From: Phreatobacter aquaticus
GTDB lineage: Bacteria > Pseudomonadota > Alphaproteobacteria > Rhizobiales > Phreatobacteraceae
Direction of reading: 5' to 3'
Assembly (NCBI RefSeq): GCF_005160265.1
Contig: NZ_CP039865.1
Coordinates: 2,938,828 to 3,002,827, forward strand
Length of the DNA stretch: 64,000 nt
Made by a program: the position numbers and the translations under genes. The notes below the pieces were generated by a model that saw nothing but the letters and a program-made list of their open reading frames with translations, searched no databases and had not been told where the DNA came from. Below, in pieces: positions 4,147 to 20,628 of the stretch; position 1 is the stretch's first letter; each line of letters starts with the position of its first letter.

Positions 4147-5244
4147 ATGGACCGCCGCCGATTCATCACAACAACCGGTCTCGCGACCGGTGCCGCAGCG
4201 GCCGTCGCTGCCCCAGCCGTTGCTCAGACGAACCCGAAGGTGACCTGGCGGCTGACATCGAGCTATCCGAAGAGCCTCGACACGCTCTATGGCCTGTCGC
4301 TCCAGGTGGCCAAGCGGGTGGCCGAACTGACCGACAACAATTTCCAGATCCAGACCTTCGCCGCCGGCGAAGTCGTGCCGGCGCTCGCCGCCCTCGACGC
4401 CGTGCAGAACGGCACGGTCGAATGCGCCCACACCCTGTCGAGCTTCTATATCGGCAAGGATCCGGCTTTCGCCTTTGATACCTCGCTGCCCTTCGGCCTC
4501 AACACCCGCCAGCACAATGCCTGGCTCTATCAGGGTGGCGGTCTCGAGCTGATCCGTGACTTCTACAAGGCCTACAACATCCACATCATCCCCTCGGGCA
4601 ATACCGGCGCGCAGATGGGCGGCTGGTTCCGCAAGGAGATCAGGACGGTTGCTGATCTCAAGGGCCTGAAGATGCGCATTGCCGGCCTTGGCGGCACCAT
4701 TCTCGCCCGCCTCGGCGTCGTGCCCCAGCAGATCGGCGGTGGTGACATCTATCCGGCGCTGGAGCGCGGCACGATCGATGCCGCCGAGTTCTCCGGTCCC
4801 CACGATGACGAGAAGCTCGGCTTCCAGAAGGTCGCCAAGTACTATTATTACCCGGGCTGGTGGGAAGGCTGCGCCAACGTCGCCTTCATCGTGAACCAGG
4901 ACAAGTGGGCAAGCCTGCCGCCGGCCTATCGCGCCGCCCTTGAGGCCGCCTGCGCCGAAGCGCTGACCCTGGGTGTCGCCAAGTACGACAACCAGAACCC
5001 CGATGCGCTGTTCCGCCTCGTGGCGGCCGGCGCCGAACTGCGCGCCTTCCCGCAGGAGATCATGCAGGCAGCCTTCAAGGAGGCGATGGCGCTCTATGGC
5101 GAACTCGCCGCCAGCAATCCGAACTTCAAGAAGTTCTACGATTCCTGGCTGCCCTACTGGCGCAAGGAGCAGGTCTGGTTCCGGGTGGCCGAACTGCCCT
5201 TCGACGCCTTCGTGTCGAGCCAGGCGCAGATGCAGGGCCGCTGA
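4147..5244 (+). CDS. TRAP transporter solute receptor (FcbT1/DctP type), orphan
   Basis: A periplasmic solute-binding protein, 365 residues. The N-terminus MDRRRFITTTGLATG looks like a twin-arginine signal, with cleavage after AVAQ. The body matches the mannitol/chloroaromatic class of TRAP receptors: [37 protein letters not shown], and YYYPGWWEG. It is clearly paralogous to the receptor at 19540. No TRAP permease is encoded beside it, so it must use a distant one, possibly the dctQM pair at 20.9-23.5 kb. The bound substrate is unknown. Confidence 0.88.
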   Translation: MDRRRFITTTGLATGAAAAVAAPAVAQTNPKVTWRLTSSYPKSLDTLYGLSLQVAKRVAELTDNNFQIQTFAAGEVVPALAALDAVQNGTVECAHTLSSFYIGKDPAFAFDTSLPFGLNTRQHNAWLYQGGGLELIRDFYKAYNIHIIPSGNTGAQMGGWFRKEIRTVADLKGLKMRIAGLGGTILARLGVVPQQIGGGDIYPALERGTIDAAEFSGPHDDEKLGFQKVAKYYYYPGWWEGCANVAFIVNQDKWASLPPAYRAALEAACAEALTLGVAKYDNQNPDALFRLVAAGAELRAFPQEIMQAAFKEAMALYGELAASNPNFKKFYDSWLPYWRKEQVWFRVAELPFDAFVSSQAQMQGR

Positions 5245-8655: not shown

Positions 8656-10173
8656 TCAGGCCTTGTAGAGATCCTTGTAGGCGTCGCGCAGCAGGTTCTT
8701 CTGCACCTTGCCCATCGTGTTGCGCGGCAGGTCGTCGACCACGATCACCCGCTTCGGCAGCTTGTACTTGGCAAGCCGCGTCTCCAGTGCGGTCAGGATC
8801 GCGCGCTCGTCGATCTTGGCACCCTTCTCGGCCACCACGACCGCGGTCACGCCTTCGCCGAAATCGGGATGGGCGACGCCGATGACAGCGCTCTCGACCA
8901 CGCCGGCCATGCCGTCGATCTCGGTCTCGACTTCCTTCGGGTAGACGTTGTAGCCGCCGGAAATCACGAGATCCTTGCCGCGGCCGACGATGTGGACATA
9001 GCCCCTGTCGTCGATCTTGCCGAGGTCACCCGTGATGAAGAATCCGTCGCCGCGGAACTCGGCGGCCGTCTTCTCGGGCATCCGCCAGTAGCCGCCGAAC
9101 ACGTTCGGCCCCTTCACCTCGATGACGCCAATCTCGCCCTGGGCGAGTTCGGCGCCGGTGTCCGGATCGGCCACCCGCAGCGAAACGCCGGGAAGCGGGA
9201 ACCCGACCGTGCCGGCCACGCGCTCGCCCTCATAGGGGTTCGACGTATTCATGTTGGTCTCGGTCATCCCGTAGCGTTCCAGGATGGCGACACCGGTCTT
9301 GTCGCGGAACAGCCGGTGGGTCTCGGCGAGCAGCGGCGCCGAGCCCGAAATGAACAGGCGCATATGGGCGGTCGACGACCGGGTGAGCCGGGCGTCCTGC
9401 ACCAGCCGGACATAGAAGGTTGGCACGCCCATCATGCAGGTCGCCCGCGGCATCAGGTCGAACACCGTGTCGGCGTCGAACTTCGGCAGGAAGATCATCG
9501 AGGCGCCAGCCATCAGGATGGTGTTGGTGGCGACGAACAGGCCATGGGTGTGGAAGATCGGCAGGGCGTGGAGCAGCACGTCATTCGACGTGAAGCGCCA
9601 GTAGTCCTTCAGCGTCAGCGCGTTCGAGGCGAGATTGTCGTGGCTGAGCATGGCGCCCTTCGAGCGGCCGGTTGTCCCCGAGGTGTAGAGGATTGCCGCC
9701 AGATCGCCTGCCGCACGGTCGACTGTCTCGAAGCCCGCGGATGCAGCGGAGGCCATCTCCATCAGGCTGCCGTCATTCGCCTTGCCGAGCGTCGCGACTG
9801 CTCCAACGCCGGTCTTGGCGGCGATCGCAGCGATGCCGTCGCGGCGCGACGGGTCGCACACGACCAGGGCGGGCTCGGAATCGCCGAGGAAGTATTCCAG
9901 TTCGGTCAGCGTGTAGGCCGTGTTGAGCGGCAGGAAGATGGCTCCGGCCCGCACGCAGGCGAGGTACAGGAAGATCGCCGAGGGCGATTTCTCCACCTGC
10001 ACGGCCACCCGGTCCCCCGGCTTAACGCCGAGGCTGACCAGCACATTGGCCAAGCGCCCCGTCGCATCGAACAGATCGCCGTAGCTGTAGACCGTGCCGG
10101 ACTCGGTCTCGATGAAGGTCTTGGCGAGGTCGGTCGCCTGGATGCGGACGAGGTCGAAGAGATGATTGGCCAT
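8656..10173 (-). CDS. matB: Malonyl-CoA synthetase
   Basis: Adenylates malonate (or methylmalonate) and transfers it to CoA. The 505-residue ANL-superfamily enzyme shows the P-loop YTSGTTGRSKG (163-173), the specific MatB motif ERYGMTETNMNTSNPY, the hinge motif TGDLG, ISGGYNVYP, and the C-terminal catalytic lysine in NTMGK (K489). I chose the ATG at 10173 (MANHLFDLV), because upstream codons give an unrelated Arg-rich extension. The usual partner, malonyl-CoA decarboxylase, is not in the window. It is convergent with pcaB, with stop codons about 20 bp apart. Confidence 0.88.
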   Translation of the reverse strand: MANHLFDLVRIQATDLAKTFIETESGTVYSYGDLFDATGRLANVLVSLGVKPGDRVAVQVEKSPSAIFLYLACVRAGAIFLPLNTAYTLTELEYFLGDSEPALVVCDPSRRDGIAAIAAKTGVGAVATLGKANDGSLMEMASAASAGFETVDRAAGDLAAILYTSGTTGRSKGAMLSHDNLASNALTLKDYWRFTSNDVLLHALPIFHTHGLFVATNTILMAGASMIFLPKFDADTVFDLMPRATCMMGVPTFYVRLVQDARLTRSSTAHMRLFISGSAPLLAETHRLFRDKTGVAILERYGMTETNMNTSNPYEGERVAGTVGFPLPGVSLRVADPDTGAELAQGEIGVIEVKGPNVFGGYWRMPEKTAAEFRGDGFFITGDLGKIDDRGYVHIVGRGKDLVISGGYNVYPKEVETEIDGMAGVVESAVIGVAHPDFGEGVTAVVVAEKGAKIDERAILTALETRLAKYKLPKRVIVVDDLPRNTMGKVQKNLLRDAYKDLYKA

Positions 10174-10258
10174 GGCTTGCGGAGCTTGAGCGGGGAAGGC
10201 GCGGACCATGCCGCATCCAGCCACCGAGGTCGAGAGCCGAAAATCCGCGGAGGACGTC

Positions 10259-12454
10259 TCAAGCTCTCCGGGCCGTACTCTCAAGTGCGTCGATCTTCAG
10301 CGTTGCGCGAATCTGTGTGCCCACTCCGGGCTTTGACCGTATCGTGAGTGTGCCCTCGTGGATGTCGACAAGCTTCTTGACGAGTGCCAGCCCGAGCCGC
10401 CCCGGCTCGTCGCCAATTGCGAGAGCCGACTCAGTCAGCGGGTCGAGAGCCTGGGCGATCTGTCCAGGGCTGATTCCGGCGCCAGAATCCACGACATCGA
10501 TGATCAGTTCGCTTGGGCCCCCGCGCTTCGCGAGCAGGCTGACCAGACCGCCCGTGCGGGTCGTCTCGATCGCATTCTCGACGAGTTCGCTCATGATCTT
10601 GCGCAGTGTCGCGGCACTGATGACCATGCCGGACACGTCCGGCGCCCAGACGACGCGCAGCTTCACGCCCTTTGCCTCGGCGCGTCCCCGATGGACCATG
10701 TTGACCTCGGAGATCAGCTTGTCGACGGGCGTCCGGTCCAGTGTCGGGGGTGTTGCGAAGGTCGAAGCCTCCGCATAGTCGATGACATCGGCCAACCGCC
10801 GGGCCAGCCTGGCGGTCTCGTCGCGGGCGGCCTCGATCAATTCGTCCATGTCGGCTGGCGTCCGGCTGGCATCGGCGCGCAGCGCCAGTGCATGCAGCCG
10901 CTCGATCGGTGGTCGGAATGTCCGCCCGATCAATCGCACGATGCCCGTGCGCAGGCCCTGCAGGCCTTGCATGGAAACGAGCGCGCGAGCGATCTGGTCC
11001 GTCAGCAGGGCGACTTCGCGCGTTGCCTCTTCCAGCCGCTCGTCGCGCTGCGTGAGTTCGCCGGCAAGCCTGACATTGTCGGCATGGGTCTCGTCGAGCT
11101 CGCCCTTGGTCGTCGCCAATTGATCCCTGACGCCAGTGATCTGGGCGCGGAAGATGTCGACCGCACGATTGTACTCGCGGGCGACCTGGCCGATCTCGCC
11201 GTCGGTATCCGCATCGAGATAGGCGAAACTGCCGGAATAGCGGTTGACCGCGTTCATCTGGCCGACCAGCAGCGCGACATCGGTCGTCATGCCATGTTCG
11301 GAGACGTTGAGACCGATGCGCTCGTCGTCCCGTGCCACGCGCATCTGCAGGACAAGCCGGGCAGCGGCGATGCCGGCGGCCATCAGGCCGGCGCTCCAAA
11401 GACAGATAGCGATCAATCCGGCCGCTTGGACGCCCACCATGCCGGCATCCGGCGGAAGCGCCGCAAAGGCGACGGCAACGATCCCGAAGCCGCCAGCGAA
11501 CAGATGAACCGAAGCGATGCCGAGGGCGTCGTCGATACCGGCATGTTCCACGAGCCGCGCCCCGCCGAATGCCACACCGGCTCCGAGCGCACCGATCAAG
11601 ACAGCCGCCAATGGGCTGAACAGATGGGCGCCTGCGGCAACCGCCACCACGCCGGCCAAAGCGCCATGAATGATCTGGATGACGGTGATCTGCCGGGGCG
11701 CGATCTGGCTGGCGATGAAGGCGGTCGTTGTGCCAGCGGCGCCGGCGAGTATCAGGACCAGGATCGCTGCCGCAGGGGGCGCGCCGATGCCGATCGCTTT
11801 GCCCGCAGCGATACCGAACCAGCCAAGCCAGAGCAGAAGCACCCCGAGAGCGGCGAAGGGGAAGCTCTGGCTCTGAATCACCGTCGTCCGCTTCGCATCG
11901 GTGAAGCGCCCGCTCCGCGGGCCGATCATGGCGGCAGCCGTCAAGGCCGCGACCCCGCCCGCGACATGGATGACCGCGCCGCCCGCGAGATCGATGAAGC
12001 CGAACTGATTGAGCCAGCCACCACCATCCGCGCCCTTGGCCCAGACCCAGTGCGCCACAATCGGTGCGATCGCGGTGCTGAAGATCAGGACGACCGCCGC
12101 GTAGCCGCGTAGCGTCGTGCGCTCGGCGAGCGGACCCGACAGGATTGTCGCCGCGGCTGCACTGACGGCGATCATGAACAGGAGGTCCGACGATGCAAAA
12201 GCGGTGTCAGGAAAGAAGGGCCCGCCGCCCATGAGCCCATTGCCACCAACGGACATCAGGCCGTAGCCGACAGCCCAGACCAGCAAGACCGACAAGCCCG
12301 CCTGCACCAGCGCCTTGGCGGCCGCATTCACGGAATGCTTGGCGCGCACAAGTCCGCTCTCCAGCGTCACATGGCCCGCCAGGACGAGAAAGACGCAGAA
12401 TGCGGCGGCAACCTGCCAGAGATCGGTCGAGACTGGAGAATCCATCCACATCAT
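10259..12454 (-). CDS. Ammonium-transporter/histidine-kinase fusion (pseudo-kinase)
   Basis: A 731-residue inner-membrane sensor. Residues about 10-385 form an Amt/MEP domain ending in the typical tail GLNVSEHG; the twin pore histidines are present (H163 in DLAGGAVIH, H317 in DDALGIASVH). After a HAMP-like stretch and a coiled coil (about 395-490) comes a DHp-like helix and an ATPase domain with N-box ELVENAIE, G1 DSGAGI and G2 GRLGLALV. The H-box reads GRTFRPPIERL, so Arg replaces the phosphoacceptor His. By eye, positions equal to AmtB Phe107, Phe215 and Ser219 are Val97, Ile215 and Lys219. Start chosen at the ATG at 12454; a TTG lies at 12487. Probably an ammonium-sensing regulator rather than a transporter. 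Confidence 0.85.
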   Translation of the reverse strand: MMWMDSPVSTDLWQVAAAFCVFLVLAGHVTLESGLVRAKHSVNAAAKALVQAGLSVLLVWAVGYGLMSVGGNGLMGGGPFFPDTAFASSDLLFMIAVSAAAATILSGPLAERTTLRGYAAVVLIFSTAIAPIVAHWVWAKGADGGGWLNQFGFIDLAGGAVIHVAGGVAALTAAAMIGPRSGRFTDAKRTTVIQSQSFPFAALGVLLLWLGWFGIAAGKAIGIGAPPAAAILVLILAGAAGTTTAFIASQIAPRQITVIQIIHGALAGVVAVAAGAHLFSPLAAVLIGALGAGVAFGGARLVEHAGIDDALGIASVHLFAGGFGIVAVAFAALPPDAGMVGVQAAGLIAICLWSAGLMAAGIAAARLVLQMRVARDDERIGLNVSEHGMTTDVALLVGQMNAVNRYSGSFAYLDADTDGEIGQVAREYNRAVDIFRAQITGVRDQLATTKGELDETHADNVRLAGELTQRDERLEEATREVALLTDQIARALVSMQGLQGLRTGIVRLIGRTFRPPIERLHALALRADASRTPADMDELIEAARDETARLARRLADVIDYAEASTFATPPTLDRTPVDKLISEVNMVHRGRAEAKGVKLRVVWAPDVSGMVISAATLRKIMSELVENAIETTRTGGLVSLLAKRGGPSELIIDVVDSGAGISPGQIAQALDPLTESALAIGDEPGRLGLALVKKLVDIHEGTLTIRSKPGVGTQIRATLKIDALESTARRA

Positions 12455-12563: not shown

Positions 12564-13142
12564 TCACGCACCCGGCGCGAAACGGCCACGCTCCCGGTCC
12601 CGCCACTCGCGGGGACGGATGAATGTGCCTGCCCACAGGCCCTTGCGCTCCAGGCGGGCGCCAGCCTCGTCGATCAAGTAGGATCCGTAGGAAACAGCCT
12701 GTCCATTGGCCACCATGGCGCGACCAAGATCGACGCCATCAACGCGACAGACGGCGACGGTCCGGCCGAACCGGTCGATGTCGCGCCGCTCGCATGTGAC
12801 GACCTGTCCGGCGATCAGGGCGGTGAGATGGCGCGCTGCCTCTCGGCCACATTGAACTTCCCGGTTGTCGCGCGTGCAGCGCTGGAAAAGTTCCGGTGCA
12901 TCGACCCCGTGCAGCCGGACCTCTGTGCCGCCGACCATCAGGCTGTCGCCATCGATGATGCGGGCGTGGCCGGTGATGTGTGGGCGCACCGGCACGCGGT
13001 TCAGCACATAGGCCGCAATCGTTGCGCCGACGATCAGACACGTCAGCAGCACAAATGCAAAACCACGGTTCGGGCGCAAGCTATCGGAACGCCACGGGGC
13101 CGGCCGTGGGAAGCGGCGGAACGTCTGGGACACGATCTTCAC
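12564..13142 (-). CDS. Membrane-anchored thermonuclease (SNase-like) family protein
   Basis: 192 residues: a basic N-terminus, one hydrophobic segment (about 27-46) acting as anchor or signal, then a staphylococcal-nuclease fold from about 58. Visible motifs are IIDGDSLMVGG, VRLHGVDAPEL (Arg and Asp of the active site), CGREAA, DRFGR and LVANG-like VANGQAVSYG. Such proteins cut nucleic acid outside the cytoplasm, though the substrate in vivo is rarely known. The catalytic Arg and acidic residues appear intact. It stands divergent to the kinase gene at 13234. Confidence 0.82.
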   Translation of the reverse strand: MKIVSQTFRRFPRPAPWRSDSLRPNRGFAFVLLTCLIVGATIAAYVLNRVPVRPHITGHARIIDGDSLMVGGTEVRLHGVDAPELFQRCTRDNREVQCGREAARHLTALIAGQVVTCERRDIDRFGRTVAVCRVDGVDLGRAMVANGQAVSYGSYLIDEAGARLERKGLWAGTFIRPREWRDRERGRFAPGA

Positions 13143-13233
13143 CTTTCGTTCACCATGTACTTCGACCGGTCGTTAATCAACTTCTGCCACGTTTCACCAC
13201 AATTGGTATTGCGTGATGAAGGGGTGCGCTCGA

Positions 13234-14847
13234 ATGAGCGTGGAGGTTGTGGGCGAGCCCCTCGGCGATCGGCAGGCGGAACGTGCCGAGCGGCAGGCCC
13301 AGAGCCGCAAGCGCGTCGTGCGGCAGGTTCGCGATGCCCGCGAGCGTCTGACATCGACCACCGGCACGCGCCGCTCGTTCGAACTCGAACTGATGCGCGT
13401 CTATGCGCAGAACAAGGTCTCGGCAGCGCTTGCCGTGGTGCTGCTGGCGATAGCGGTTGGATGGGTCGCCTCCTGGATCACCAATCCGATCATGGGCGCG
13501 CTCGGCGCCGGTACCGTTCTTGTCATGCATGCCTTCGTGGTGTTGCTGGCGCGCGGATTCCTCAAGGTCGATGCGGAAAAGGTCGACCTGCGCTCCTGGC
13601 GCATCCGCTTCGTGCTCGCCGAGACGCTGATCGGGCTCGCCTGGGTGCTGGCATTGACCACGGTGATGAAGACCGATCAGCCGGAAGCCAATACGTTCCT
13701 GCTCGTCGGCATGCTGATCATCATTGCTGTCTCGGCCATGATCGGTTCCACGTTGCCGGCCGCCGTGCTCGCGTCGTCCTTTCCTGTCGGCACGCTGGTC
13801 ATCACCTATTTCATCCTCGTTCATGGGGTCAAAGGTGCTCTGTTGGCGACCATGGCTGGCGGCACCCTGCTGTTCTTTGCCATCATCGCCACGCGCCTCT
13901 ACCAGACCAACCTTGCGACCATCGAGGCGCGCGCCGAGAAGGATGCGCTGTTTGGCGAAGTCGAAACCGCCAAGGCCAATTCGGACGAGGCCCGGCGCAA
14001 TGCCGAAATGGCCAATATCGCCAAGTCGCGTTTCCTTGCCCAGATGAGCCATGAGCTGAGGACGCCGCTCAACGCCATCCTCGGCTTCTCCGAGGTGATG
14101 AAGGGCGAGATGTTCGGCCCCCACTCCTCGCCCCAATATGCCGAATATGCCAACGACATCCACTCGTCCGGCCAGCATCTGCTGTCGCTGATCAACGAAA
14201 TCCTCGATCTTTCGCGCATCGAGGCCGGCCGCCACGAGCTCAACGAGGAGGCCTTGACGCTGGCCTATGTCGTCGAGGACTGCCACCACCTCCTGAAGGT
14301 GCGCGCCAAGAACAAGGGGGTGACGATCGTTGAGCGGTTCGAGCCCGACATGCCGAAGCTGTGGGCCGACGAACGGTCGATCCGCCAGATCGTGCTGAAC
14401 CTCATGTCGAATGCCATCAAGTTCACACCGGCCGGCGGCGAGATCAGCCTGAAGGTTGGCTGGACGGCATCAGGGGGACAGTATGTGTCGGTGAAGGACA
14501 CTGGCCCCGGTATTCCGGAAGAGGAAATCCCGATCGTCCTGTCGAATTTTGGCCAGGGGTCCAACGCCATCAAGTCGGCGGAGCAGGGCACGGGCCTCGG
14601 TCTGCCAATCGTCCAGGGGCTGGTGGCCATGCATGGTGGCACCTTTGCCCTGAAGTCGACCGTGCGTGTCGGCACCGAGGTTGTCGTGACGTTTCCAGCC
14701 GAGCGGGTCATGGAGGCTCTGCCGGCCATTGCCAGCCCCTCGATGGAGCCAGTCGGTGACAGCACGCCGATCGCTTTGGAGGTCGAGCCGCAGCAGGCGC
14801 AGAAAGTGTCTGCGCTCCGCCGACGCCTGTTCGGCGCTGGGGTTTAA
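13234..14847 (+). CDS. Sensor histidine kinase, PleC/DivJ/PdhS-like
   Basis: 537 residues. A basic N-terminal 55 residues precede about six to seven membrane segments (62-220), a short coiled coil, then HisKA with SHELRTPLNAILGFSEVM (His273) and HATPase_c with N-box LNLMSNAIKFTP, DTGPGIP and GTGLGLPI. The stretch after the H-box (FGP, then DIHSSGQHLLSLINEILDLSRIEAG) is typical of the PleC/DivJ/PdhS family that acts on DivK and so on CtrA in this class. ATG at 13234 has AAGGGG upstream; GTG/ATG at 13213/13216 are alternatives. No response regulator is adjacent. It lies 0.8 kb from the Amt pseudo-kinase gene on the opposite strand. Confidence 0.87.
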   Translation: MSVEVVGEPLGDRQAERAERQAQSRKRVVRQVRDARERLTSTTGTRRSFELELMRVYAQNKVSAALAVVLLAIAVGWVASWITNPIMGALGAGTVLVMHAFVVLLARGFLKVDAEKVDLRSWRIRFVLAETLIGLAWVLALTTVMKTDQPEANTFLLVGMLIIIAVSAMIGSTLPAAVLASSFPVGTLVITYFILVHGVKGALLATMAGGTLLFFAIIATRLYQTNLATIEARAEKDALFGEVETAKANSDEARRNAEMANIAKSRFLAQMSHELRTPLNAILGFSEVMKGEMFGPHSSPQYAEYANDIHSSGQHLLSLINEILDLSRIEAGRHELNEEALTLAYVVEDCHHLLKVRAKNKGVTIVERFEPDMPKLWADERSIRQIVLNLMSNAIKFTPAGGEISLKVGWTASGGQYVSVKDTGPGIPEEEIPIVLSNFGQGSNAIKSAEQGTGLGLPIVQGLVAMHGGTFALKSTVRVGTEVVVTFPAERVMEALPAIASPSMEPVGDSTPIALEVEPQQAQKVSALRRRLFGAGV

Positions 14848-16202: not shown

Positions 16203-16323
16203 TCTGTATCAACACCACCGCGCCAAACGCCGCTTGTATTCGCGACCTGTTCACGCGACAAAACGTTACATTCGGAATTGGGGGGCGAGCCCGTCCGTTT
16301 GGACATCGCGTGAGGAGACCTTC

Positions 16324-18339
16324 ATGGTCCGTCGGTTCATCGGGCTGCTTGCAGCCGCGGTGGTGACAGCTTTCACTGCCTTACCGGCCATGGCCGAGAC
16401 CCGCGTTGCGCTGGTTCTCGGGTCTGGCAATTACAGCACCAATCCCATGGCTGGTGCGCTCAATGATGCCGGCCTGATTGCCCAGACGCTGAGAGATCTG
16501 GGTTTTGCCACGGTCGAAGGGGCAGACCTGCCCCAGGCCGAACTGCGCCAGGCCATAGCCAGCTTCATGGCCAAGGTGCGCGAGGCAGGCCCCGATTCCA
16601 TCGCTTTCGTCTATGTCTCAGGCCTCGGTCTGCAGCATGACAGCGAAAGCTACCTCATCGCGGCCGATACTGCAGTCGAGCGCGAGTCTGATATTCCGAT
16701 CGGCGGCATTCGCATTCTCGACATCACCCGTGCGCTCGCGGCGATCCCGAGCAAGGCCAAGGTGGTTCTGCTGGATCTGTCGCGCGAACATCCCTTCGCC
16801 AATGTCGGCCAGCCGGTGCGCCCCGGCATCGGCGTCATCGACGGAGCGCCCGGCATGCTGATCACGTCTGCTGCCGCCCCCGGTGCGATGTCATCTCCAA
16901 CCGACACGGCCTATGGCCGCTTCGCTCTCGCCCTCTCCGAGCAGCTTCGGGAACCGGGCGTCGCGATCAACGAACTGATCGCCCGGGCGCGCCTGCGCGT
17001 CCATCAGCAGAGCAACGGTCGCGACACGCCATGGGAGGTCTCGAGCCTCCAGCCCCCCGTGCCGATCCTCACCGAGCGGCCGGACAACACGTCGACCGGG
17101 TCAACGCCGCAGCCGCTGGCCGAGCGTCCGCCCGAAAGCCTTTCGATCGAGGAGGCCTATGCGCTCGCCATCGAGCGGGACACGATCCAGGGCTACCAGG
17201 TCTTCCTGCGCGCTTATCCCGACGGGCCGCTGGCCCTGCGCATCAAGCGTCTGCTGGCAGCCAAGCGCGAGGCTGTCGTCTGGCGCCAGACGCTCCGCGT
17301 CAACTCGCCGGAAGGCTACTGGACCTATCTGCGGCGCTATCGCAACGGCCCGCACGTAGCCGAGGCCCGTTGGCGCCTCGAGCGGCTGTCGGCGCCCGTC
17401 GCGCCGCCGCCGACATTCGCCGAAGTCGTCTATGACGATATCCCGCCGCCCTTGCCGATGATCGAGGTCATCGACGATCCCGGCTATTGGGAGCCGGCAC
17501 CGGCTGCCTTCTATGACGAAGTGGTGCTCGCGCCTGTCTATCTCGGGCCGCCGCTTGCTCCCTTGTGGGCCTTGCCGCCGCCGCCTCCGCCGGTCTGGGG
17601 CTACCTGCCCGTGGTGGGCGTTGCGGCAGCCGTGGTCGCGGTTCCGTTCATCCTACCACGCTTCGTTCGCCGTCCCGTGGCACCCGTGGTGCTGACGCCC
17701 CAGGGTGGACCGCGCTTTGGTGCCCCCGGGGGCGTCCGGCCCTTCGCACCGAACAATCCCGGTGGCCGTGCTCTGCCTGGCTCCGCCGGCGGCAATGCAC
17801 TGCCTGGAACTGGACGGCCTCAATTGGGCGGTCCGCAATTCGGAAACCGTGGCCCGACCGGTATTGCTCCGAGCGGGATCGCGCCGAACCCGGGCAACCA
17901 GGGCGTTGGCGGCAAGCCGCTCTCCGGTCAGGGCAATCCCGGTTTCGGCAATGCCGGCCGTGGGATTGGTCCCGGCATAGGGAACCGTGGTCCCAACCTC
18001 GGCAACCGGGGCCCCAATTTCGGAAATCGCGGCCCGAACATCGGTAGCCGCGGAGCGGACTTCGGTAACCGCGGTCCGAACGTCGGAAATCGTGGTCCCA
18101 ACATCAACAACCGTGGTGGTTTCAACGGTCGGCCAGGGGGCTTCAATCCGGGTCTTGGACGCTCGGGAGGCGGGGCGCCTGTCGTCCGCTCGTTCCAGCC
18201 CCCGCGGCAGACCTTCCAGCCCAGGGTTCAGGCTCCGCCGCGCCAGACCTTCTCGGCCCCGCGCCAGTCGTTTCAGGCGCCACGCCCGAGCTTCACGGCG
18301 CCGCGCGCCGCTCCGAACAACCAGCGCCGGCGGTTCTGA
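16324..18339 (+). CDS. Secreted caspase-fold pseudoenzyme with Gly/Asn/Arg repeat tail
   Basis: 671 residues. A signal peptide (cleavage near residue 24, PAMA) is followed by a caspase-like p20 fold (26-245). The catalytic pair is lost: the usual GHG is GLG (L101) and the usual DACR is DLSR (S153). Residues 270-375 hold two helical repeats around QGYQVFLRAYPDGPLA and YWTYLRRYRNGPHVAEA. A proline-rich stretch, a hydrophobic segment (about 445-465) and a long Gly/Asn/Arg/Pro-rich tail follow, with GNRGPN heptads. Related rhizobial proteins also have altered catalytic residues, as far as I recall. Probably a structural or binding role in the envelope. Start chosen at ATG 16324, where the signal peptide begins. 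Confidence 0.8.
   Translation: MVRRFIGLLAAAVVTAFTALPAMAETRVALVLGSGNYSTNPMAGALNDAGLIAQTLRDLGFATVEGADLPQAELRQAIASFMAKVREAGPDSIAFVYVSGLGLQHDSESYLIAADTAVERESDIPIGGIRILDITRALAAIPSKAKVVLLDLSREHPFANVGQPVRPGIGVIDGAPGMLITSAAAPGAMSSPTDTAYGRFALALSEQLREPGVAINELIARARLRVHQQSNGRDTPWEVSSLQPPVPILTERPDNTSTGSTPQPLAERPPESLSIEEAYALAIERDTIQGYQVFLRAYPDGPLALRIKRLLAAKREAVVWRQTLRVNSPEGYWTYLRRYRNGPHVAEARWRLERLSAPVAPPPTFAEVVYDDIPPPLPMIEVIDDPGYWEPAPAAFYDEVVLAPVYLGPPLAPLWALPPPPPPVWGYLPVVGVAAAVVAVPFILPRFVRRPVAPVVLTPQGGPRFGAPGGVRPFAPNNPGGRALPGSAGGNALPGTGRPQLGGPQFGNRGPTGIAPSGIAPNPGNQGVGGKPLSGQGNPGFGNAGRGIGPGIGNRGPNLGNRGPNFGNRGPNIGSRGADFGNRGPNVGNRGPNINNRGGFNGRPGGFNPGLGRSGGGAPVVRSFQPPRQTFQPRVQAPPRQTFSAPRQSFQAPRPSFTAPRAAPNNQRRRF
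17980..18105 (+). repeat. 21-bp coding repeat, heptapeptide GNRGPN-x
   Basis: Six consecutive in-frame units of 21 bp encode GNRGPN followed by L, F, I, V or similar; the fourth unit is diverged (GSRGADF). Codons differ between units, so the repeat is kept at protein level. A partial seventh unit (NNRGG) follows. Confidence 0.85.

Positions 18340-19314: not shown

Positions 19315-20628
<1,314 letters not shown>

Follow-up and report, generated by a model that had tools for sequence, protein, structure and literature searches.

The described proteins closest to the one analyzed here are Ks-Amt5, an ammonium sensor histidine kinase of Ca. Kuenenia stuttgartiensis (PDB 6EU6), the Sd-Amt1 receptor of Shewanella denitrificans (PDB 8QJ3, 8QJ4 and 8QPF), solved in ON and OFF states according to the titles of its PDB entries, and DivL of Caulobacter (PDB 4Q20), in which a Tyr occupies the phosphoacceptor position. 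According to PMC5764959, Ks-Amt5 has a phospho-His and binds two ammonium ions via Q24, E31, N47, D50, T51, T109 and T112, with the Q24/E31/N47/D50 site occupied. DivL, according to PMC4211667, lacks kinase and phosphatase activity, has weak affinity for an ATP analogue and serves as a docking site for DivK~P. A truncated form of ChrS obtained by laboratory evolution acts through another kinase (PMC9491836). Amt-kinases and pseudo-histidine-kinases are both known, while searches of open-licence literature turned up no protein combining the two.

A putative combination of this kind was encoded in the window, i.e. the whole 64,000-nucleotide stretch of Phreatobacter aquaticus DNA that was analyzed. 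The gene and its parts were located as follows:

10259..12454, minus strand: Amt-pseudo-histidine-kinase gene, 731 aa, stop included in the coordinates, start probably at 12445
11285..12418, minus strand: Amt domain, residues 13-390, with the twin His (H163/H317) and D155 kept; altered at the Phe gate, at S219 and at the Ks-Amt5 ammonium site
11135..11341, minus strand: cytoplasmic linker, residues 372-440, conserved among 12 orthologues (mean pairwise identity 0.80)
10961..11134, minus strand: long helix, residues 441-498, with REVA(L/F)LTDQ (alignment and models)
10760..10948, minus strand: DHp-like helical hairpin, residues 503-530 and 533-565 (models and superpositions)
10922..10924, minus strand: codon of R511, the phosphoacceptor position (alignment and superpositions)
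10892..10894, minus strand: codon of H521, an invariant His at +10, outside the phosphoacceptor position (alignment)
10295..10735, minus strand: CA/HATPase-like domain, residues 574-720, with a short lid and without a visible F box
10574..10576, minus strand: codon of N627, the N-box Asn, present in the window protein and substituted by His or Thr in 6/12 orthologues

Translation probably starts at M4, at position 12445, as Met was found in that alignment column in 12/12 orthologues; the other 11 were trimmed to begin at this column, and L013-L017 carry an extra in-frame Met further upstream. Pfam matches on the 731-aa protein comprised Ammonium_transp (residues 13-390, E 6.6e-73) and HATPase_c (residues 616-721, E 3.9e-17), together with a weak match to HATPase_c_2 that fell below threshold (19.6 bits vs. 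a cut-off of 27.4). There was neither a HisKA call nor a PAS match on this protein, the Amt domain standing in place of the latter. Both AlphaFold models (whole protein, mean pLDDT 68; residues 440-731, mean pLDDT 75) showed a CA domain preceded by a helical hairpin. Based on Pfam, the models and superpositions, an Amt domain is therefore fused N-terminally to a DHp-CA fold, in the same order as in Ks-Amt5-type sensor kinases and with a similar length (731 aa vs. 679 aa in Ks-Amt5). The modeled Amt part matched the 38 Amt/Rh structures listed with Z scores of 37.7-48.2, including 48.1 to 6EU6; Sd-Amt1 was its best sequence match (over window-protein residues 10-438 only) and, tied with 6EU6, its best structure match.

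The search of 11 further genomes of the genus gave a full-length orthologue, with 57-66% identity, in each. Among the resulting 12 sequences, mean pairwise identity was 0.82 for the DHp-like part, 0.80 for the linker, 0.72 for CA, 0.67 for Amt and 0.63 for the coil, the first two of these stretches being more conserved than the other three. The dN/dS values from seven close pairs were 0-0.068 for the DHp-like part, and ranged from 0.025 to 0.244 for CA, from 0.076 to 0.246 for Amt and from 0.036 to 0.367 for the coil, showing that the gene is under purifying selection.

In order to place the phosphoacceptor position, models were superposed on known kinases. The H-box of the window protein reads GRTFRPPIERLH, and R511 superposed on His260 of HK853 and Tyr550 of DivL, assuming no gap before R511. 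In the whole-protein model, residue 503 paired with HK853 252, while in the model of residues 440-731, position 63 (residue 502) corresponded to HK853 251, position 57 to DivL 535 and position 60 to EnvZ 231; ungapped extension from these pairs puts R511 at HK853 260, DivL 550 and EnvZ 243. HK853 260 is the His mutated in 6RH7, according to the title of that entry, and EnvZ 243 is, we assume, the phosphoacceptor His. The superpositions on CpxA, ZraS and RetS fell about 2 residues away from what we take to be the numbers of their His, those on HK853 had an rmsd above 6 A, and the block pLDDT around R511 was middling (64 and 71 in the two models). Given this offset and the HK853 rmsd, the register of R511 rests on several superpositions jointly, plus the Pro at +5.

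Both R511 and the Thr that follows it were unchanged in 12/12 orthologues, and the whole GRTFR-x-PIERLH motif showed no variation among them. The residue following the phosphoacceptor His is normally Glu or Asp, and T or N is found at +4; in the orthologues, the acid was lost in all cases, and the +4 position was occupied by Q (9), A (2) or P (1), T and N being absent. Taking the roles of these motifs from general knowledge, the replacement of His by Arg and of the acid by Thr, together with the change at +4, means that the usual activity of a HisKA-type kinase or phosphatase would not be expected. H521, a His retained in 12/12 orthologues, lies ten residues, or roughly three turns of the helix, away from the phosphoacceptor position. 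The search of this genome matched 15 further histidine kinases; inspected by pattern and by eye, 14 of them carried the His, and the remaining one, the organism's own DivL, carried a Tyr.

The ATP site was less uniform among orthologues than the H-box region. In the window protein, residue 627 is still the N-box Asn, and both the G1 motif and a G2-like motif are present, so that this protein may bind ATP. Residue 627, however, was N in six orthologues, H in four and T in two; no F box was seen in the 12 aligned orthologues and the lid was short in many of them, with the G1 motif retained. One sequence (L017) had an 11-residue gap in CA, perhaps due to an assembly error.

These results bear on the preliminary description, in which an Arg had been read at the His position of the H-box and a signalling pseudo-kinase had been proposed. 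The observation was confirmed, with the superpositions placing the Arg at HK853 His260 and DivL Tyr550, and its conservation in close homologues, raised there as a question, extends to all 12 genomes of the genus examined. A sequencing error, with His in the homologues, had been named as the finding that would count against it; this can be set aside because the 12 genomes carry the gene in the same order with GRTFR-x-PIERLH invariant, and low dN/dS and retention of the gene likewise make an error or a dying gene unlikely. The N, G1 and G2 boxes, described as intact, are so in the window protein, but for the family this does not extend to the N box, whose Asn was lost in 6/12. Taken together, the Arg (12/12), the adjacent Thr, P, A or Q at +4 and the frequent loss of the N-box Asn support, at the level of sequence, a putative pseudo-kinase.

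The same description had likened the protein to DivL. DivL shares a non-His residue at the phosphoacceptor position and was the top or tied-top match of the kinase fold (Z 20.1 and 20.7); it was also the top kinase match in the PDB, and the DivL of the host, which carries the Tyr, had the lowest E-value among the host kinases. Relatives of DivL were found in 40/41 genomes. It differs in having Tyr rather than Arg at that position and PAS sensors rather than Amt, and it occupied a separate branch of the kinase tree. The best scores of the window kinase part were close (56.2 bits for DivL vs. 51.9 for a PdhS-like kinase), in a comparison that, like the first kinase tree, left out 11/30 DivL loci, L124 (a split gene) and L098. 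Membership in the DivL family was rejected, as kinase-domain trees with 19 and 7 DivL rows, both with long-branch warnings, kept the lineages apart; the parallel stands as a comparison of how the protein might work and fails as a statement of kinship. In the superposition register, the DivL docking residues R553, T557 and Y562 correspond to R514, E518 and L523, so that only the Arg is matched; docking of DivK by the DHp-like part was not assumed, because two of the three compared residues differ.

Alignment of the Amt part with AmtB of E. coli K-12 showed F107 replaced by V, F215 by I and S219 by K, with both pore His and D160 retained, just as had been reported from alignment by eye. In the 12 orthologues, the equivalent of F107 was always aliphatic (V, L or I; Phe in 0/12), that of F215 was I in eight, V in two and F in two, and that of S219 was Q in 11, K in the window protein only and Ser in none; D160, H168 and H318 were retained in 12/12 and W148 in 10/12. 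Hence, the twin His and D160 typical of Amt/Mep/Rh transporters were present throughout, while the Phe gate and S1 site (F107, F215, W148 and S219) were not preserved. Concerning the Ks-Amt5 ammonium site, the equivalents of Q24, N47 and D50 were replaced in 12/12 orthologues, that of E31 was kept in 12/12 and that of T109 in 10/12. The five residues Q24, E31, N47, D50 and T109 were retained in 25/25 His-bearing alphaproteobacterial Amt-kinases, in 2/2 gammaproteobacterial ones and in 15/15 other long Amt proteins (six read as fusions, the rest chosen by length). Among 18 stand-alone Amts, Q24 and D50 were both present in one only (L066); E31 and N47 equivalents were found in 17/18 of them, so neither marks a sensor.

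In order to compare the protein with other Amt fusions, profile searches were carried out in 397 genomes from the order and in 385 from the class, with two candidates scored per genome; the counts, taken from among the matches listed, are not census figures, and absence from them is no proof of absence. Outside the order, the 25 Amt-kinases read (L176-L191 and L193-L201), from other alphaproteobacterial orders, resembled the window protein in having Amt, linker and kinase in that order, and differed from it in carrying SHELRTPL, Q24/E31/N47/D50 and the listed pore residues in 25/25. Inside the order and outside the genus, the eight full-length Amt-kinase-fold proteins read (L062, L063, L065 and L228-L232), which come from four other families, all lacked the His. 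Frames of about 820-840 aa in the order search were mostly outside the set read, one of them (L225) being an MCP, and a relative of L062 (G297, gene in two frames) was outside the H-box counts. The Arg itself is not general, as these eight proteins had other residues at the position of R511 (by eye), and L065 and L228-L232 were without the N-box Asn. L062 had lost the His, with its ammonium site complete and its pore residues in place, and L063 and L065 kept the twin His. In L228-L232, all from another family of the order, the twin pore His was lost, with H168 replaced by F in the five proteins and H318 by F, S, T, A and A.

In the full-length tree, built without L192 (GGDEF/EAL), L202 (MCP), and L203 and L204 (both lacking a kinase), a single branch parted 27 His-bearing from 20 His-less fusions (support 100/100, with a long-branch warning). 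The same split was obtained, again with long-branch warnings, in the Amt tree, which contained 13 of these His-less fusions (99/94), and in the kinase tree, which contained seven (100/98). When L063, L065 and L228-L232 were removed from the Amt tree (45 rows), Phreatobacter and L062 were not resolved from the His-bearing fusions. A single origin of the His-less fusions is thus likely but not proven. The canonical H-box failed to align with the His-less hairpin in MAFFT, and the kinase part might either have decayed from a His-bearing Amt-kinase or derive from another kinase.

Regarding the His-bearing fusions themselves, most of the 25 had H-boxes like HELRTPLNAIIGFSE, a form we take to be of the DivJ/PleC type, and they intermingled with PdhS-like kinases in the kinase tree; it is possible that ammonium is linked to DivK-type regulators via these Amt-kinases. 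One of them (L200, 2-730 vs. 823-2961) is placed tail to tail with a response regulator resembling CtrA by eye, a layout that suggests an ammonium input near the cell-cycle circuit of that organism. A crude receiver pattern gave four matches near the 25 canonical fusions, and no common partner was found among 10 neighboring frames of L062, L063 and L065.

The genes next to the Amt-pseudo-kinase gene were also compared among the 12 genomes of the genus. Its nearest neighbors were:

8656..10197, minus strand: matB-like malonyl-CoA synthase, downstream and co-oriented with the Amt gene in 12/12 genomes
12564..13142, minus strand: SNase-domain protein, upstream, on the same strand as the Amt gene in 12/12 genomes
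13213..14847, plus strand: histidine kinase resembling DivJ/PdhS, with a normal H-box (SHELRTPLN), divergent neighbor in 12/12 genomes

The order pcaB, matB, Amt gene, SNase, kinase, GST and UDG was identical in the window and in 11/11 stretches of the genus, pcaB being cut by a contig end in L080. An operon with matB was considered and rejected: the strand is shared in 12/12, yet a gap of about 2.1-2.2 kb separates the genes in L084 and L090. The adjacent kinase scored under the curated cut-offs of the DivJ/PdhS models, and in one genome (G004; L083, 7314-8923) it was in two frames, perhaps through an assembly error. It had matches at 1e-60 in 46/49 genomes of other families (58/61 minus the 12 of the genus), with the kinase end alone matching in four of those genomes, and the matches listed for the Amt gene included no full-length one in the same 49. 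As the SNase gene adjoined this kinase in 7/18 loci of other families (1.5 kb flanks), the Amt gene would occupy an older neighborhood. The case for the adjacent kinase as partner, based on gene order, was considered weak, since the SNase-kinase pairing is also found in other families, and gene order therefore points to no firm partner. Elsewhere in the host genome, a normal amtB with glnK adjoining was present, so ammonium uptake probably does not need the Amt-pseudo-kinase.

Two further observations concern the surroundings of the gene. It is flanked on either side by genes for DctP-family TRAP solute-binding proteins (4147-5244 and 19321-20628) that are 57% identical and lie about 14 kb apart; in L082 and L087, the site on the right holds two copies. 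At 16234-18339, the window encodes a protein that has a caspase domain (Peptidase_C14) and a long tail rich in glycine and arginine; it was matched at the same site in 6/11 stretches of the genus (two of them partially) and in none of the other five.

As computed, the protein has the Amt and DHp-CA make-up of a sensor kinase, and has lost the phosphoacceptor, neighboring catalytic residues and three Ks-Amt5 residues. The reading that we moderately favor is that of a non-catalytic receptor-scaffold in which the Amt trimer would sense, the linker would relay, and the DHp-like part and CA would dock or modulate a partner without phosphoryl chemistry, for which DivL and the truncated ChrS are precedents. 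As to ligand, partner and movement, we infer that an Amt-fold trimer, as in Ks-Amt5, would shift its shape upon a ligand or membrane cue sensed otherwise than in Ks-Amt5, and that the conserved linker would pass this change on to the DHp-like hairpin and the degenerate CA domain. The latter two would neither phosphorylate nor dephosphorylate, and would instead dock or modulate another protein in a DivL-like manner. Signalling would probably be by shape alone, and the stimulus is perhaps other than ammonium.

On this last point the preliminary description had held that the pseudo-kinase is driven by ammonium binding; ammonium would then bind either at the twin His or at a shifted site and switch a non-catalytic kinase fold. 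Ammonium binding or conduction by the Amt part is possible, given the twin His, D160 and E31 equivalents in 12/12 and W148 in 10/12; His-less L062 retains the entire ammonium site and the pore residues, and AmtB S219A remains transport-competent according to a review (PMC10433425). Nevertheless, the loss of the Q24, N47 and D50 equivalents, which may be regarded as the main evidence against simple ammonium sensing, and the changes at S219 (Q or K) and F107, all of them in 12/12, leave the proposed drive without support in the sequence and make this explanation unlikely. The earlier proposal as a whole thus comes out divided, strengthened with respect to the pseudo-kinase and weakened with respect to ammonium. 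The same twin His and D160, together with the high similarity to Amt/Rh folds, would also suit a protein that still mainly transports or channels ammonium, or some small molecule like it, with a C-terminal part that only regulates it; this is very improbable in view of the changed F107 and S219, the normal amtB-glnK elsewhere in the genome and a C-terminal part that, coil aside, is conserved at least as much as the Amt part.

Catalysis of another kind, in which a GHKL domain would use ATP on H521, Arg, Ser or a partner protein, would account for the intact N627, G1 and G2-like motifs of the window protein, the invariance of H521 and the weak, sub-threshold HATPase_c_2 match. Such an enzyme would hardly be expected, however, to lose its N-box Asn in 6/12 while R511 and H521 persist, to show no F box and a short lid, or to use a His located ten residues off the phosphoacceptor position, and we give this explanation little credence, placing it slightly behind that of a transporter. 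A decaying relic without function, which the loss of signature residues in both halves and the greater degeneration of certain more distant relatives could suggest, is hardly credible, since dN/dS was at most 0.25 everywhere except in the coil (0.04-0.37) across the seven pairs, and the gene was retained in the same order in 12/12 genomes.

Beyond the genus, a more tentative reading, to which we give somewhat less than even weight, is that a lineage of Hyphomicrobiales holds an ammonium-sensor kinase that was emptied of its sensing site and of its catalysis and that is strongly selected, with a non-ammonium ligand and a purely conformational action. If true, the grades of change would be represented by L062 (His lost), Phreatobacter (gate and ammonium site also lost) and L228-L232 (twin His lost as well). 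Conserved pseudo-histidine-kinases have seldom been described, DivL being the main natural example in the literature covered, and the Amt-pseudo-kinase would be a second one, differing from DivL in the residue that replaces the His and in having a sensor derived from a transporter. The presence of both Q24 and D50 in 42/42 other long Amts, compared to 1/18 stand-alone Amts, points to a way of testing Amt fusions for ammonium sensing from their sequence and makes testable the conversion of Amt folds into receptors for other ligands. In such a lineage, the outcome would be a pseudo-transporter joined to a pseudo-kinase, acting on some partner.
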